A DNA stretch of 21,950 bases from a virus. Positions 8,854 through 20,871 of this stretch are shown one piece after another. The translations under genes and the position numbers were made by a program. The notes under the pieces were generated by a model. It was not told where the DNA came from and searched no databases. It saw nothing but the letters and a program-made list of their open reading frames with translations. Every line of letters begins with the position of its first letter. The stretch's first letter is position 1. The stretch is from positions 1 through 21,950 of IMG/VR virus record IMGVR_UViG_3300037296_000063; one strand, 5' to 3'.

Positions 8854-10527
8854 CTAAAACATCAGCAATCCGCGATCTTCATAGACCGATGGGCCTTCGT
8901 TTTCGTCCAATAGCCAGCGCCCCAGCGCCATCATTGCGGCCACCGGGCCGTCGATCTTGTTCGCCGCACGCTCTTTTGCGGGGCTGTGAATGTCGCCAGT
9001 CTTTGACCGGTTCACCACGTTAGACAGCATCCACGCAAAAGCGGGTTCGCCGTCGTGGATCAGCTTCTTGTCTGCGATCAGCGCATCCATTTTGCGCATC
9101 GGTTCGTTCATCAGGGTCGGACGGTTGGCGAAGTCGATGCACGCAACGCCCTGTTCCATCAGTTGCACGGCCATTTGCCGGGAATGCAGCGGGTCAAAGG
9201 CGACCTCACGCACGTCAAACAGCTTGCACCATTCCAGAATGTCGGCTTCAATCTCGCGGTCGTCCGTTACCGCCCCGTCCGTCTGGATCAGCACGCCTTG
9301 ATCGCGCCACAGCCTGAAATGCTCGTTTTCCGGCAATTCCACGGTTTCCTCTGGCGCGTAGTAGCGCCCAAACCGCACATAGCCGTCGCCCTGCCGAAAC
9401 AGGATTTCAACCGCCGTCAAGTCGCGCTTTTCGGCCAAGTCAACACCGATGATCGCCTCTTGTCCGGCAAAGTCCTCTAGCTTTAGGTCTGGATTGCCCG
9501 CCTGCTGATACCGCAGGACGTTGAAATAGGCGTCACGCGCCTGCACCCACACGTTGAGATGCTTTGTTTTGAACTGCCCAGCCTTGCGGGGGCTTCCCAT
9601 TGCCTCGCGCTGGCGGGCTAAGAGAAAATCTTCGCCCACGGAAACGCCGAAATTCGGGTTGGCCTTGCGCAGATTGGCAGGGTCCGTCCAATCGTCATCA
9701 GCATCAACGCCGTAAACAAGCGCGAATGTCTCGTCATCTTGCCGCGTGCCTTCTAGCATCGCCTGCGCTTCGTGCTGCATCGCGTAACAAGGGCCTGCGA
9801 TGTTGTCGCCCGCCGTCGTGATCGCCAGCATCATCGGCTGTTCACGCGCACCCATGCCCGTTTCCATTGTGGAATACATCGCGTCGGTGTCGTGTTCGTG
9901 GTATTCGTCAACAATTGCGCAGCTTGGCGATGCGCCGTCACCCGGCTTGCCAATCAGCGGTTCAAACCGGCTTTCATTTGCCAAGACGTGCAGGTTGGAC
10001 GCGTTCACCGTCAAACCGTAATGGCTCAACATGGCGGGCGACTTCAACGCCATCAGGCGGGCAGGACGAAACACCTCCCAAGCCTGCTTTTCAGACGTCG
10101 CGCCGGAATAAACCTCTGCGCCGTGTTCGCCATCAGCAACCAGCATGTAAAGCCCGATTGCCGCAGCCAGTGCCGACTTGCCGTTCTTGCGCGGAACCAG
10201 CAGCAGCACCTTGCGGAACCGCCGCATGTTGTCCTTGCGCCGCAGCCAGCCAAAGACGCAGACCACGAAAAACACTTGCCAAGGCTCAAGGATCAGCGTT
10301 GCCTTTTGCGCCGCCCATTTGCCCTTGGTGTGCGGCATCAACTCGATAAACGCGCACGCCTTTGTCGCGGCCTTGCCATCGAAGCGATAAGCAAAGCCGT
10401 CGTCGGCCTGCCAATCCAGATCGTCAAGGTGACGCTGACAGGCCAGCTTGATATATTTGCCCGCCGGTATCTTGCCGCTAAGAACGTCGCGGGCGTATTG
10501 CTCTGCAACGGCGGGATAGTCTGTCAC
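8854..10527 (-). CDS. Terminase large subunit (Terminase_1 / phage HK97 type)
   Basis: A 557-residue packaging motor. The ATPase domain has a Walker A-like VPRKNGKS at residues 111-118 and Walker B CAIVDEYHEH with Asp207/Glu208, followed by the coupling motif 'MLAITTAG'. The nuclease domain begins near residue 355 with GVDLAEKRDLTAVEI (Asp363 probable metal ligand) and includes 'EVAFDPLHSRQMA'. The C-terminal 'HSPAKERAANKIDGPVAAMMAL' is characteristic. The enzyme cuts concatemeric DNA and pumps it into the prohead. Translation starts at GTG 10527, which overlaps the small-subunit stop by 4 nt (GTGA). Its length is normal. Confidence 0.97.
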   Translation of the reverse strand: MTDYPAVAEQYARDVLSGKIPAGKYIKLACQRHLDDLDWQADDGFAYRFDGKAATKACAFIELMPHTKGKWAAQKATLILEPWQVFFVVCVFGWLRRKDNMRRFRKVLLLVPRKNGKSALAAAIGLYMLVADGEHGAEVYSGATSEKQAWEVFRPARLMALKSPAMLSHYGLTVNASNLHVLANESRFEPLIGKPGDGASPSCAIVDEYHEHDTDAMYSTMETGMGAREQPMMLAITTAGDNIAGPCYAMQHEAQAMLEGTRQDDETFALVYGVDADDDWTDPANLRKANPNFGVSVGEDFLLARQREAMGSPRKAGQFKTKHLNVWVQARDAYFNVLRYQQAGNPDLKLEDFAGQEAIIGVDLAEKRDLTAVEILFRQGDGYVRFGRYYAPEETVELPENEHFRLWRDQGVLIQTDGAVTDDREIEADILEWCKLFDVREVAFDPLHSRQMAVQLMEQGVACIDFANRPTLMNEPMRKMDALIADKKLIHDGEPAFAWMLSNVVNRSKTGDIHSPAKERAANKIDGPVAAMMALGRWLLDENEGPSVYEDRGLLMF

Positions 10528-10985
10528 CCCAGCACCGCGAACGGATTAGCCGCCGCCGCCTTGCCTGCGGAAACCTTAGACCGCGCCGATGGGGTCAGGC
10601 CGAACTCTGCCAAGAGAGATTGCGCATGGCGCATTGCCTCGTTCCGCATGGCTACCTCTGGCGCAGCACGCCGCATCCGCACATTGCCGTCGTCGTCCTT
10701 TTGCTCATACGTCCGCCCACCATCTTCAATCGCAGCGGTCATCAACTCGACCTCCTCGATACGGCTGGCCAGCAATGAAAGCGCGATCTGGTCGTCAGGC
10801 GATGCAATGCCCATACCTAGAAGCGTGGCCGACATTTGCGCGAACAATTCCGCAGCGCGTTCGGACAGCCAATCGGGGGCAACAGCCACACCGGGATTAG
10901 CCGCAGGGGCTTCGAGGTTCATCCGATCAGGACGAGCCGTGCCTTTGACCACTTTCAGGTGATCGGGGGTTGGTTTTCGGCCCAT
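10524..10985 (-). CDS. Terminase small subunit, P27 family
   Basis: A 153-residue protein from ATG 10985. The opening MGRKPTPDHLKVVKGTARPD is the highly characteristic P27-family N-terminus ('GRkP.p..lk.l.Gn...R'). The middle is helical (APDWLSERAAELFAQMSATL, 'SPDDQIALSLLASRIEEVEL'), and the C-terminal part 'LLAEFGLTPSARSKV' is the conserved oligomer/LTP-box region. The protein recognises the packaging site and regulates the large subunit. An in-frame start at 11000 is possible but lacks a ribosome site; AGGG lies upstream of 10985. Gene order HNH-TerS-TerL is standard. Confidence 0.93.
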   Translation of the reverse strand: MGRKPTPDHLKVVKGTARPDRMNLEAPAANPGVAVAPDWLSERAAELFAQMSATLLGMGIASPDDQIALSLLASRIEEVELMTAAIEDGGRTYEQKDDDGNVRMRRAAPEVAMRNEAMRHAQSLLAEFGLTPSARSKVSAGKAAAANPFAVLG

Positions 10986-11063
10986 GTTAACGGCCCTCAC
11001 ATTTTGTCTTGATTTTGACGGTATTTAAAAAGCACAGAGCCGCCGGTCCTGAATAACCCAGCC

Positions 11064-11483
11064 CTAGACTTTCACCCACCCCCGCCCCTGTAGCGCGCCT
11101 CTAGTGGCCTTGGGCGCCTTGCGCCACTCGACCCACCGCAGCAGATCGTCGCCCCTGTAGCGGGCTTCTGCGCGGGCCTTGTCGCTATTGTGGTGCTTGG
11201 CGCATAGGCCAGTGAATGTGTTTATCCAGAACAGGTCTGCATCGCCTTCGTGCGGCAGGTCGTGATCGCATACCGTGGTCGGCTCAACCCTGCCGTCTGC
11301 CAAGCAATACTCGCACAGTGGGTGCTGCCTGATGAACGCGGCGCGGAAGGTGTCCCATCGTGCGTCGTATCCACGGTCGCGGGCGCTGCCCCTGTTCTCG
11401 CGTGGCTTGTGCGTGTGCTTGGCTGCGACCGTGTGCTTGCCGCCTATGGTTGGGCGTCTGTGTGTGCCGGGTGCAGCAGCCAT
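11064..11483 (-). CDS. HNH endonuclease, terminase-associated
   Basis: A 139-residue protein with ATG at 11483, preceded by GAGG at 8 nt spacing; a longer frame from 11576 would run through the tRNA gene and is rejected. The HNH module is plain: CEYC zinc knuckle (Cys57, Cys60), the VCDHD motif with Cys72/His74, an Asn near residue 88, and LCAKHHN (Cys94, His97/His98). The N-terminus is basic and low in complexity (HTVAAKHTHKPRENRG), likely DNA-contacting. HNH proteins next to terminase in HK97-like phages support specific DNA cleavage during packaging. About 78 nt separate it from the small terminase start. Confidence 0.92.
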   Translation of the reverse strand: MAAAPGTHRRPTIGGKHTVAAKHTHKPRENRGSARDRGYDARWDTFRAAFIRQHPLCEYCLADGRVEPTTVCDHDLPHEGDADLFWINTFTGLCAKHHNSDKARAEARYRGDDLLRWVEWRKAPKATRGALQGRGWVKV

Positions 11484-11543
11484 GCGTGTGGCCTCATGTG
11501 CGGGTGATGGTTGCGCGTCGGCTGGTGTGCCGTGCTGCGTAAA

Positions 11544-11620
11544 TGGCAAAGGTGGAGGGATTCGAACCCCCGACACGCGGTTTTGGAGACCGCTGCTCTA
11601 CCTGACTGAGCTACACCGAT
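11544..11620 (-). tRNA. tRNA-Trp (anticodon CCA), with imperfect acceptor stem
   Basis: The minus strand folds as a complete 77-nt cloverleaf: T8-A9, D arm GCTC/GAGC, anticodon arm GCGGT-CTCCAAA-ACCGC with anticodon CCA (plus-strand 11584-11586), variable GTGTC, T arm GGGGG-TTCGAAT-CCCTC, discriminator G and an encoded CCA tail. The D, anticodon and T arms are sound (one G-T pair in the T arm). The acceptor stem, ATCGGTG with CACCTTT, has mismatches at 2:71 (T-T) and 3:70 (C-T), so only five of seven pairs form. It reads UGG. It lies between the NusG-like gene region and the HNH gene. An 8-nt direct repeat GCCATTTA flanks it at both ends. Confidence 0.85.
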
Positions 11621-11889
11621 AAATGGCGAACCCTTGAGCCGTGGCATCAGAGGGGAAAGCCGTATTGCTGAGAATTGGTTGCCCGTCTCTCCGGGCTGTC
11701 ACAAGTTTGACCGTATGTTGCGGGCCAGCGCCCTTCCCTTGGGCTAGATCACGGACTCGAACCGTGGGCTTCTGACTTATCGAACCCCATGTAGTCTGGG
11801 GAATTGCTTACGCAGTGGGGACTGCCTGCGCCGGAACGCGACCCCACCGCCAGTGCGCCCGATTGCTCTGGTGCGCTAATAGCCCTTGG
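11621..11889. other. Non-coding stretch before the late genes
   Basis: Together with the tRNA this makes about 400 nt without a confident protein gene, the longest such gap in the window. It contains a second tRNA-like fragment (11738-11801), a 5-bp GC hairpin GCCCG/CGGGC with a 6-nt loop at 11688-11703, and a GCCC/GGGC hairpin with a 7-nt loop at 11730-11744. I see no strong promoter consensus and no terminator with a T run on the minus strand. It would be the leader of the late operon if transcription continues from the early genes. Confidence 0.5.
11738..11801 (-). other. tRNA-like fragment (3' half relic)
   Basis: The minus strand carries a perfect T arm, CACGG-TTCGAGT-CCGTG (11766-11750), followed by ATCTAGC and CCA, as in the 3' end of a tRNA. 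Upstream of it is a hairpin CCCCA/TGGGG with a 7-nt loop GACTACA (11801-11785). A matching 5' acceptor strand and a D arm are not evident, and position 33 of the loop would be A instead of U, so this is probably a degenerate or rearranged tRNA. Confidence 0.4.
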
Positions 11890-12096
11890 CTACCACATGC
11901 GGTGCGTGAACGCAAGTGCTATGACGTGCGCCATGTTATCAGGATATATGCCGAAAATACAAACCCCGATGCGCCGAGGCCCCCCACGAAAAGACGCCCA
12001 CTCAGCGTGATTAGACAGCGCATAGGCAAGCGCCACCGTTACGGCGAAGGCGGCTATAAGCGCGCCTGCTATGAAGCAACGGAACTTTTCCATCAT
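11890..12096 (-). CDS. Small membrane protein, 68 aa, function unknown
   Basis: A 68-residue protein starting MMEKFRCFIAGALIAAFAVT. Residues 6-27 form a single hydrophobic transmembrane helix or uncleaved signal anchor, preceded by positive residues (K, R), so an N-in, C-out topology is expected. The rest is mildly basic with FRGGPRRIGVCIFGIYP. The start overlaps the NusG-like stop by 4 nt (ATGATG; either ATG can serve), with GAGGGCGGG just upstream, which supports a real, coupled gene. It is the last gene before the non-coding tRNA region. I see no spanin, holin or other signature strong enough to name it. Confidence 0.62.
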   Translation of the reverse strand: MMEKFRCFIAGALIAAFAVTVALAYALSNHAEWASFRGGPRRIGVCIFGIYPDNMAHVIALAFTHRMW

Positions 12097-12695
12097 CCCG
12101 CCCTCACATCAAGCGGATCGAACTGCACCGGCATACCGCCCGCCGTGGTGCCTGCGATGCGCTGCCACTTGTCGTGCGGCGCTTTCACCAGCTTCTCAAA
12201 CGTCACGAGCATATCAGCGAACGGCCCCGAAACCACGCGCAAGGGCTGGCCTTTTTTGTATGCGGTCACACTCGCCCGCGAATTGGCGTCTACGCGCTCA
12301 GCGGCGCTAAATGCGGCCTCTACTTCGGCCTTGAACTGGTGCAGGCCCATAACGCCGTCGCCGCCTTTCAGCGCCCTTCCTGCAACAAGCGTCATCGTCG
12401 GGGATACATGCGCCACGCTGGTCACGGTGAACATGTCCTGCGGGTCCATATCAACCACGATGTAGTTGGGCAGTGCTGGCACATCGTAGCGCGTCCATTC
12501 CCTCGACTTGCCGGTGCGCTTGAACTCTACGCGGGTGCCGCACCATGCGTTGATGCCAAGGAGGCGCAGTTCTTCGATCACCCACAACTGCTTGCGGGTC
12601 ATTCCAACGCGGATCGGTTCGCCGTCCTCGTCGCGTGTCGGTGCGTGGGTGTCCCGGCATACGCCCCCGGATACGTAGGCAAGATATGTGGCCAT
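12093..12695 (-). CDS. NusG-like transcription elongation/antitermination factor (NGN + KOW)
   Basis: A 200-residue protein that I read as a phage NusG/RfaH-type factor. Residues about 35-100 resemble an NGN domain: a helix QLWVIEELRLLGINAWCGT, an insertion with a basic patch (EFKRTGKSREWTRY), then VPALPNYIVVDMDP equivalent to the family's 'PlfPGYvFv', and 'FTVTSVAHVSP' equivalent to the 'v....gv' strand. Residues 146-170 (YKKGQPLRVVSGPFADMLVT) are a good KOW motif, 'f..Gd.VrV..GPFa...g.v'. NusG-family proteins bind RNA polymerase and suppress pausing or termination. The residues 1-34 are extra and the linker (103-145) is long. It sits at the end of the early operon, upstream of the structured leader and late genes. 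Assignment strong for KOW, good for NGN; the target is inference. Confidence 0.82.
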   Translation of the reverse strand: MATYLAYVSGGVCRDTHAPTRDEDGEPIRVGMTRKQLWVIEELRLLGINAWCGTRVEFKRTGKSREWTRYDVPALPNYIVVDMDPQDMFTVTSVAHVSPTMTLVAGRALKGGDGVMGLHQFKAEVEAAFSAAERVDANSRASVTAYKKGQPLRVVSGPFADMLVTFEKLVKAPHDKWQRIAGTTAGGMPVQFDPLDVRAG

Positions 12696-13516: not shown

Positions 13517-13728
13517 CCCCTGCCCTCCTCTGTTGCGTTGATTGCCTCGCGCAGGGCAGTTGCGGCCTGCGTGTATGCCTGTCCGGGGTATTGCTTCGCC
13601 ATCCGGTCGTAGAACGCGAGGCGGCGGTCAGCATCGGCAACCGCGAACGTGTCGGACCATAGGTTGCCTGCCATATGGATGCTGTCGCCGTCGCCGTCGC
13701 GATTGGCTGTGAAGGTTGCGGCGGTCAT
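13513..13728 (-). CDS. Small hypothetical protein, 71 aa
   Basis: A 71-residue protein starting MTAATFTANRDGDGDSIHMA and then a helical part (DADRRLAFYDRMAKQYPGQA, TQAATALREAINA). No recognised family. It is joined to both neighbours by 4-nt ATGA overlaps, the main support that it is real. Confidence 0.6.
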   Translation of the reverse strand: MTAATFTANRDGDGDSIHMAGNLWSDTFAVADADRRLAFYDRMAKQYPGQAYTQAATALREAINATEEGRG

Positions 13729-14312
13729 GCGCGGGCCTTCTTCGCGCGGTCTTTGGCGACAATCTTCATCTCAGCGGCAGAATCCCGCATCTTGCGCACC
13801 ATGATTGCCTCTAGTGCCGCCGCTGCTGTGATGTTCCCCGACTTTGAGTATTTAGGCCGCTTGGCAAGGCCCAATCGCGCTACGGCTTTGTGTACTGTCG
13901 CAGACGATTTATAGCCAAAGTGACGCTGCATTTCAGCGCCGCTTACGTTCATGTTCCACATTTCAGTGAACAGATTTTCATCTACGGGTTTTTTCGACGT
14001 GGTGCGATAAGGCAGGCCAAGCCTCCTTGCTTTATGGAAAACGGCGGCAGGCGTGACGCCAAGCATTTCGGCAACCTGCTTAATCGTCGTTTTGCGGCTT
14101 GATATGATGGGGGCCAAGACTTCGCGGGTAATCCCGTCTAGTGGATACGGGCGGCTTCCCCTTGCAAACTCCAGCCCCAGCTTTTTCACTTTGCGCAGAG
14201 CTGTGGTTGCAGACACGCCGTGATATTCTTGCGCCTCTTTGCGCGTCATGCCTGCCGCTGCGCATTCCGCCCACGTCATCGGCGCTGCTGTGATGGGGCC
14301 GTGCTTGCTCAT
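13725..14312 (-). CDS. DNA-binding protein with three helix-turn-helix repeats
   Basis: A 195-residue basic protein made of three similar HTH units. Unit 1 (about 12-47) ends ATTALRKVKKLGLEF, unit 2 (about 64-103) has TTIKQVAEMLGVTPAAVFHK and ends ARRLGLPYR, and unit 3 (about 112-153) has 'SGAEMQRHFGYKSSATVHKAV' and ends ARLGLAKRP. Each has the pattern helix-turn-helix then 'K..RLGL', as in AsnC/Hin-type or GcrA-like repeats. The C-terminus (KMRDSAAEMKIVAKDRAKKA) is lysine-rich. A protein with three tandem HTHs would contact an extended site of about 30 bp. A role as an activator of the late region or as a replication regulator is possible but not shown. It overlaps both neighbours by 4 nt. 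Confidence 0.72.
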   Translation of the reverse strand: MSKHGPITAAPMTWAECAAAGMTRKEAQEYHGVSATTALRKVKKLGLEFARGSRPYPLDGITREVLAPIISSRKTTIKQVAEMLGVTPAAVFHKARRLGLPYRTTSKKPVDENLFTEMWNMNVSGAEMQRHFGYKSSATVHKAVARLGLAKRPKYSKSGNITAAAALEAIMVRKMRDSAAEMKIVAKDRAKKARA

Positions 14313-19878: not shown

Positions 19879-20081
19879 GCCACACCGCCAATCTGGTCGC
19901 ACACGTCAGCCGCAGCGTCAGGGGCGGGAACGTAATACGAGGTCCGCGCGTCAACGAACCACGCAAAGCTAGTGCCTACGCGGTCGCGGGAACTTACAAC
20001 GGCAACACGCGCCGCGCGGGATCGGGCGATAGGCGCAGGCGGGATCAACAGCGGGCATGGGGGGAGCGTGATGCGGGTCAT
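19875..20081 (-). CDS. Small hypothetical protein, 68 aa
   Basis: A 68-residue protein starting MTRITLPPCPLLIPPAPIAR. The N-terminus is proline-rich and mildly hydrophobic, then basic (RSRAARVAVVSSRDRVG); the C-terminal half has WFVDARTSYYVPAPDA. No family recognised. It is coupled to neighbours by 4-nt overlaps at both ends. Confidence 0.55.
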   Translation of the reverse strand: MTRITLPPCPLLIPPAPIARSRAARVAVVSSRDRVGTSFAWFVDARTSYYVPAPDAAADVCDQIGGVA

Positions 20082-20266
20082 GCGGACATCCAGACGATAG
20101 TGCTGTAGGAAATCAGTTCGCCGTTTGGGAAGTCGCGGCGGAAAATGCCCTCGAACATTTCACCGGCTGACAACGCATCTTTCGCTGTCACATCCATTCG
20201 CCCCTTGCGGGACGGCGCTGCGGTGTAAGAGATGGTGAACCGCGTTCTGACGACTGGATTTGTCAT
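20078..20266 (-). CDS. Small hypothetical protein, 62 aa
   Basis: A 62-residue protein starting MTNPVVRTRFTISYTAAPSR. A predicted small alpha/beta domain: two strands (RTRFTISYT, ELISYSTIVWM) and one helix (ALSAGEMFEGIFRRDFP). This looks like a tiny double-stranded-RNA-binding-like or 'phage YopX-like' fold, but no name can be supported. It overlaps both neighbours by 4 nt. Confidence 0.58.
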   Translation of the reverse strand: MTNPVVRTRFTISYTAAPSRKGRMDVTAKDALSAGEMFEGIFRRDFPNGELISYSTIVWMSA

Positions 20267-20871
20267 GCGCGGGCCTCCGTGGGGGTGGGGGATAGGCCAA
20301 GGACGCGGCGCAATTTTCCATCCTCAGTCAGCTTGGATATTTCTGCGCGGATGTCTGAGAGGGGCAAACCGTCAATGGCGTGGATATCCTCAACGCCGTA
20401 TCCTTGACCTAATCTAGCGTGGATAATTGCGGCGGTTTCGCCCTCGGCGTTTCCATCGTATCCTAGCGCAGTGCACACGCCAGCACCGCCAATGGCCTTT
20501 AGTTTGGCCTGACGCACTTGCAGCATCGTGTCGCCTTTGGCGATAATACGGCCCTGAGACGCATTAGTCTGAAAAGCCCAAGTAACAACCTCGCAGGGCA
20601 GAACCTCCAAAAACAGGCCGTCAAGTTTTGCGTTTGCAATCACCCATTCGCCGTGATCGCGATAGCGGTCGGCAGTAGCGAGAATGTGGCGCTCCCAAGC
20701 GTCAGCTTCTGGGCGAGTTGCCAGCTTCACGACATGACGAAACCGCATTTCGAATGGGGCTTGCGCACGCATGTACTGAAAGCGAGATCGTGGGTTGGAA
20801 CTTGCCCCAACTTTGGCAAATCCAGCCTGACGCGCCTCTATGCAGTATACAAAATGCTGCACTTCCCTCAT
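20263..20871 (-). CDS. GIY-YIG-type (T5orf172/MUG113-like) domain protein
   Basis: A 202-residue protein. Residues 5-80 resemble the GIY-YIG fold of the T5orf172/MUG113 group: 'HFVYCIEARQAGFAKVGASS' (the VYC... G.aKVG strands), NPRSRFQYMRAQAPFEM, then 'EADAWERHILATADRYRDHGEW' with the helix that carries the family's Glu/Arg contributions. In this group the first Tyr may be replaced, and activity is not guaranteed. The C-terminal part (150-202), 'VEDIHAIDGLPLSDIRAEIS' and 'LTEDGKLRRVLG', looks like a winged-helix domain that would bind DNA. It is early in the leftward operon, immediately after the Cro-like gene. Confidence 0.72.
   Translation of the reverse strand: MREVQHFVYCIEARQAGFAKVGASSNPRSRFQYMRAQAPFEMRFRHVVKLATRPEADAWERHILATADRYRDHGEWVIANAKLDGLFLEVLPCEVVTWAFQTNASQGRIIAKGDTMLQVRQAKLKAIGGAGVCTALGYDGNAEGETAAIIHARLGQGYGVEDIHAIDGLPLSDIRAEISKLTEDGKLRRVLGLSPTPTEARA

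Follow-up and report, generated by a model that had tools for sequence, protein, structure and literature searches.

Specialised paralogs of NusG are known from capsule, antibiotic, LPS and conjugation systems. In phage lambda, the Q gene lies directly before the late promoter and an untranslated leader. LoaP requires an RNA hairpin in the 5′ leader (PMC12691694), UpxY acts in 5′ leaders (PMC7819879), and p7 of Xp10 is a late antiterminator encoded by a phage (PMC4513864). Gene 67 of Sulfitobacter phage phiGT1 (QLB38279.1) is annotated as an RfaH/NusG transcription antitermination protein, about 64% identical to the protein described here; it is not mentioned in the phiGT1 papers PMC10386132 and PMC7427195. 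Homologues in pCB2047-A, pCB2047-C and NYA-2014a are annotated as hypothetical.

The sequence analysed, called the window, is a virus record of 21,950 bases (IMGVR_UViG_3300037296_000063), of which 42 ORFs were compared. Nearly all genes are on the (−) strand, so that transcription proceeds towards lower coordinates. In this direction, the genes for replication and DNA modification come first. A NusG-like gene and a leader follow, and after them an HNH gene, the small and large terminase subunits, portal, head protease and major capsid. The original prediction had read the NusG-like product as a counterpart of lambda Q acting on a tRNA-containing leader.

The NusG-family protein and its relatives

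The ORF at 12093..12695 (−) encodes a 200-aa protein with an NGN-like N-terminal part and a KOW domain. Single-sequence profile searches reached none of the curated cut-offs: the NCBIfam NusG model gave E = 5e-5 (far below its cut-off), NCBIfam UpxY E = 8e-5 (22.7 against 100 bits), RfaH 15.9 against 144.5 bits and the Pfam NusG family 14.5 against 22.2 bits. The protein fell into PHROG 23142 (3e-86), a family with no function assigned in PHROG, and the antiterminator family PHROG 6386 was linked at 1e-7. A six-member profile of the NusG-like family matched the KOW domains of Thermus NusG (E = 0.014) and Aquifex NusG, with alignments to 1nz9 and 1m1g.

An AlphaFold2 model was built from five sequences, with low confidence (pLDDT 58). 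When it was compared with the PDB in Foldseek, NusG, RfaH and Spt5 made up nearly all of the first 29 matches (best E = 3e-8), and proteins named RfaH and NusG were among the best viral matches. The domain order of NusG and Spt5, NGN then KOW, was recovered from Foldseek and the KOW alignment together, on a model of low confidence. Both the family similarity and the NGN/KOW fold that had been predicted were thus found. The KOW motif was placed by alignment to E. coli NusG and reads GPFADM where NusG has GPFADF. The I164-F165-G166 loop of E. coli NusG, which contacts Rho (PMC7593976), is kept in no member of the phage family; the residue numbering of the E. coli reference in this alignment was checked. 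The KOW region was modelled as strands (pLDDT 56-81), AlphaFold2 being no reliable test of fold switching. On the profiles, the KOW match, the fold search and the missing loop, the product is a NusG-family protein of specialised type. It falls outside RfaH and UpxY in the strict sense.

The missing Rho-contact loop would also suit a factor of general reach, directed against Rho or serving host takeover, that takes the place of host NusG on all transcription; its position before the late genes would then be a matter of timing. Rho is known to act on phage DNA (PMC7819879). The constant position of the gene and the conserved element described below suggest a local target instead, and we hold such a general role to be quite unlikely.

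Seven GenBank records, representing four distinct phages, carry a NusG-like homologue, and IMG/VR added L002, L009 (as NYA-2014a), L010 and L015. The relatives number only six lineages, and downstream sequence was sufficient in five lineages. A search of plasmids gave no homologue, and two scans of genome contigs for prophage copies found none. The homologues come from Sulfitobacter phages, which makes a Roseobacter-group alphaproteobacterium the probable host. In pCB2047-A (L006), the NusG-like gene at 20001-20621 is annotated with a late start (20094) that loses the conserved CRDTHAPTRDE segment; its start is probably 20001, as in pCB2047-C.

The 42 window ORFs were compared with seven related records by tblastn. 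The NusG-like protein had a homologue in 7/7 (62-94% identity), its presence being by construction, as the relatives were collected through it; the absence of other shared genes is not. Each of the other 41 ORFs had a homologue in at most three of the seven records, and the virion genes of the window had no match in any. Synteny placed a leader and terminase genes downstream of the NusG-like gene in all five lineages with enough sequence. The L002 protein is 94% identical to that of the window, yet L002 has a terminase and a portal from families other than those of the window. The only DNA in common between the two is the nusG region (707 bp, 93%), 66 bp round the element and two distal leader blocks.

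Genes flanking the leader were assigned as follows. A possible hydrophobic ORF of 68 aa (11890..12096, (−)) overlaps the nusG stop and the conserved element and is not conserved, so the stretch after the gene, taken earlier to lack any strong protein gene, is not wholly empty. The HNH endonuclease gene at 11064..11483 (−), with its start set at ATG 11483, is the first after the leader. The first packaging gene encodes the small terminase subunit (10524..11000, (−); profile matches in Pfam and PHROG), followed by the large subunit (8854..10527, (−)); portal, protease and capsid then run to 5551, as predicted. Conservation of the order NusG, leader, HNH had been suggested as a check: NusG, leader and terminase are kept in five lineages, and the HNH gene is not conserved in the relatives. 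An HTH protein at 13725-14312 (−) is similar to D5-like transcriptional regulators (PHROG, 1.4e-8) and weakly GcrA-like, and is another possible late regulator.

The conserved promoter-like element

A conserved element, absent from the original prediction, lies at 11880..11915 (−). It comprises a putative −35 (TTGCGT, 11915-11910) and a putative extended −10 (TGGTAGCC, 11895-11888), holds an ops-like core GGTAG, and includes the palindrome TAGCC-AAG-GGCTA (11892-11880, (−)), with a predicted transcript start near 11880. Its consensus, TTGCG-N6-CRC-NN-YAT-N-TGGTAGCC-NNN-GGCTA, was found in 5/5 lineages with enough sequence, at 4 to about 1,066 nt from the stop codon of the NusG-like gene. The element was not found in the 650 nt after the gene in L015, where the record ends. 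Searching the window with up to three mismatches returned a single site, 11915-11880, against 0.03 expected. A chance association of gene and element is unlikely.

Read as a promoter, the element combines TTG at −35 and TA at −12/−11 with a 17-nt spacer and a TG extension. The T at −7 is missing in three of the five lineages, which is the majority state among alphaproteobacterial promoters (PMC8407463). A scan with the E. coli promoter consensus did not detect the element, owing to alphaproteobacterial traits such as the missing −7T. From these features we infer promoter activity, of alphaproteobacterial type. A strong late promoter within the leader, with no effect of the protein on read-through, had been named beforehand as grounds against antitermination. 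The promoter-like element does sit at the start of the leader; lambda Q and pR′ are arranged in this way too, so that antitermination is not refuted by it alone. The order of regulator gene, promoter-like element, untranslated leader and late operon recurs in five lineages.

Motif scans of 2.9 million viral contigs recovered the nusG phages. The remaining matches were at chance level or were promoter-like sites without the GGCTA half. Matches L153-L161, which do not have the conserved spacer, fit chance and were rejected. Sites of the form TTGCG...TGGTAGCC without the GGCTA half lie at L012:10145-10180 (+) and around 2716-2751 (−) in L020, with no nusG-like gene on either locus; this form may be a promoter type in wider use among such phages.

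These two sites, together with the promoter spacing of the element, would also suit a plain late promoter switched by another regulator, the NusG paralog acting elsewhere and being merely linked. The palindrome spans the −10 in the usual layout of an operator, and the D5/GcrA-like HTH protein, by its PHROG match, could be the regulator. That protein is not conserved with the element, however, showing a weak 38-aa similarity in one trio of near-identical phages, and gene and element stay paired across unrelated backgrounds. We consider a plain promoter unlikely, though the most serious of the alternatives.

GGTAG falls inside a perfect palindrome, TAGCCnnnGGCTA, of which the three middle bases vary. 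These five bases are G4-G8 of the RfaH ops, where RfaH reads G5 and T6 in a small non-template hairpin (PMC5995543). The full ops (GGCGGTAGCGTG) is absent from the target leader; GGTAG(C) is all it has in common with the conserved element, and the pause flanks are missing. The five-base match is taken as a lead and no test.

The leader, its tRNA and a recurrent RNA hairpin

A putative hairpin at the RNA 5′ end, GCGC-A-CC-A-GA-GCAA-UC-GG-GCGC, lies at 11855..11876 (−) and has equivalents in the relatives. A short hairpin can form after the element in each lineage; only that of L010 is clearly stable (z = −4.9), and in the window its stability is within chance. Between the window and L002 the bases of the outer stem differ and pairing is kept. 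The two distal leader blocks are at 11620..11680 (−) (93.5% over 62 bp with L002) and 11506..11550 (−) (95.6% over 45 bp).

Folding of the window leader was ordinary relative to shuffled sequence (z = −0.86), and the GC hairpins to which structure had been ascribed are no stabler than that. Leader stability was dropped as evidence, folding energies being ordinary in all but L010. A search of the window leader found no intrinsic terminator, so the barrier to be overcome would be Rho or later terminators. In the leaders of podovirus relatives (L003 20835-21340, L005 14420-14890, L010 2395-3150), the modules AAGCCGCTTTTATGTGGTG and ATAAGCGCGGCTG recur and could pair, and the 756-nt leader of L010 folds better than 20 shuffles (z = −3.4). 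These modules are perhaps a large structured RNA.

The predicted tRNA is real: tRNA-Trp (anticodon CCA) was found at 11544..11620 (−), between the two leader blocks. The direct repeat GCCATTTA on both flanks and the contiguity of the two blocks in L002, the closest relative, suggest a recent insertion. ARAGORN found no tRNA in the loci of the relatives. Given this and the insertion-like site, the tRNA looks like a passenger with no part in the control device, and the proposed action on a tRNA-containing leader is not supported.

Insertions of this kind (a tRNA here, HNH or GIY-YIG genes at other loci) would suit a mosaic region, with the conserved block serving recombination or packaging and the NusG-like gene playing no part in late expression. 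The protein, on the other hand, is kept at 62-94% identity while almost nothing else is conserved, and promoter spacing is seen in the block of each lineage; an accident of mosaicism therefore seems very improbable.

What had been called a tRNA-like relic, at 11681..11776 (−), was rejected as a tRNA by ARAGORN and Rfam. It is a structured RNA element of about 100 nt with a T-arm-like hairpin, in which three hairpins in a junction are followed by UGACAG-CCCG-GAGAGA-CGGGC (11701-11681). In Sinorhizobium phage phiM9, an unrelated phage of 149 kb, a stretch without annotation (L027:4003-4098) matches the element at 81% identity. One hairpin covaries between the two, GCCC/GGGC becoming TGAC/GTCA with an identical loop. 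Its likeness to the 3′ half of a tRNA was considered as an attP site, and this was rejected as the main reading because phiM9 carries the element too, one hairpin covaries and no integrase lies beside it. Identity with Y RNA (YrlA) was rejected (Rfam E = 4), as was likeness to a cobalamin riboswitch (AGGGAA, CCCGCAAC), for which the order was wrong and Rfam gave no match.

The last hairpin of this element, UGACAG-NNCGGARAGACGNN-C, had at least 120 matching stretches in IMG/VR viral contigs, against roughly a dozen expected by chance, an estimate that assumes about 50 billion bases in the collection. Among the matches listed, 114 of 121 had a fully paired stem, and the base pairs that formed it varied widely. 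The matches were mostly outside long open frames; in several, a tRNA gene followed within a few nt or a start codon a short way downstream. Sites include 11701-11681 (−) of the window, the L010 leader (a variant) and L028-L032. No Rfam family was found for the hairpin in the loci tested, and a text search for its sequence gave nothing relevant. The hairpin thus seems to be a widespread RNA element of phages that has so far gone undescribed.

Proposed mechanism and comparison with known systems

Our preferred reading, which we regard as moderately probable, is that a specialised NusG paralog controls late expression from the position of lambda Q. The paralog would be expressed from the distal part of the early operon. 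Host polymerase would start at, or pass, the element at 11915-11880 downstream, and the paralog would there replace host NusG on the polymerase. The loading cue may be the exposed non-template strand (GGTAG in TAGCCnnnGGCTA), the hairpin at the RNA 5′ end, or both. Sigma and NusG proteins compete for the same polymerase site; if the element is a promoter, loading would thus have to wait until polymerase has escaped from it, or the paralog would be recruited by the 5′ RNA hairpin. Polymerase would then stay processive through the untranslated leader and along the long late operon, with a resistance to Rho and pausing that is proposed from the missing Rho-contact loop.

The predicted Q analogue fits the locus, and conservation of protein and element across unrelated late modules strengthens it. 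Because phages with quite different virion genes keep both, gene and element probably form a portable late-expression switch. More tentative, and on balance doubtful as a whole, is the full version: a NusG paralog in Q's job, loaded in cis at a palindromic, ops-like, promoter-embedded non-template signal, the whole being a module of alphaproteobacterial phages exchanged entire across unrelated virion genes.

A NusG-like phage protein is not new in itself, phage proteins named NusG or RfaH being already in databases. No functional report of a phage NusG paralog as a late switch was found in open-access papers, and to our knowledge the nusG and element cassette across unrelated virion modules is undescribed. 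Gene 67 of phiGT1 and the homologues of pCB2047-A, pCB2047-C and NYA-2014a share with the window the protein family, the place before leader and terminase, and the downstream element. They differ in having unrelated podovirus virion genes, another leader and no tRNA.

Like the window protein, RfaH of E. coli has a NusG-family fold and no Rho loop, and the core of its ops, GGTAG, is held in the window element. Unlike it, RfaH acts in trans on several operons and uses a 12-base ops with pause flanks. The KOW domain of RfaH is a helical hairpin in the free protein and switches fold. LoaP of Bacillus and UpxY of Bacteroides are also specialised NusG paralogs; each is encoded next to its target operon and acts in the 5′ leader. 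No UNCG hairpin was seen in the window leader. Their targets are bacterial secondary-metabolite or capsule operons, in contrast to phage late genes. Lambda Q and Xp10 p7 are early-made factors that let host polymerase transcribe a long late operon, as proposed here, whereas they are unrelated proteins with other polymerase contacts and neither is a NusG. The proposed device, open to test in phages that are in culture and whose hosts are known, would if true explain how phages with unrelated virion modules keep one timing device. It would join lambda Q and RfaH in one compact unit, of one small protein and a 36-bp element.
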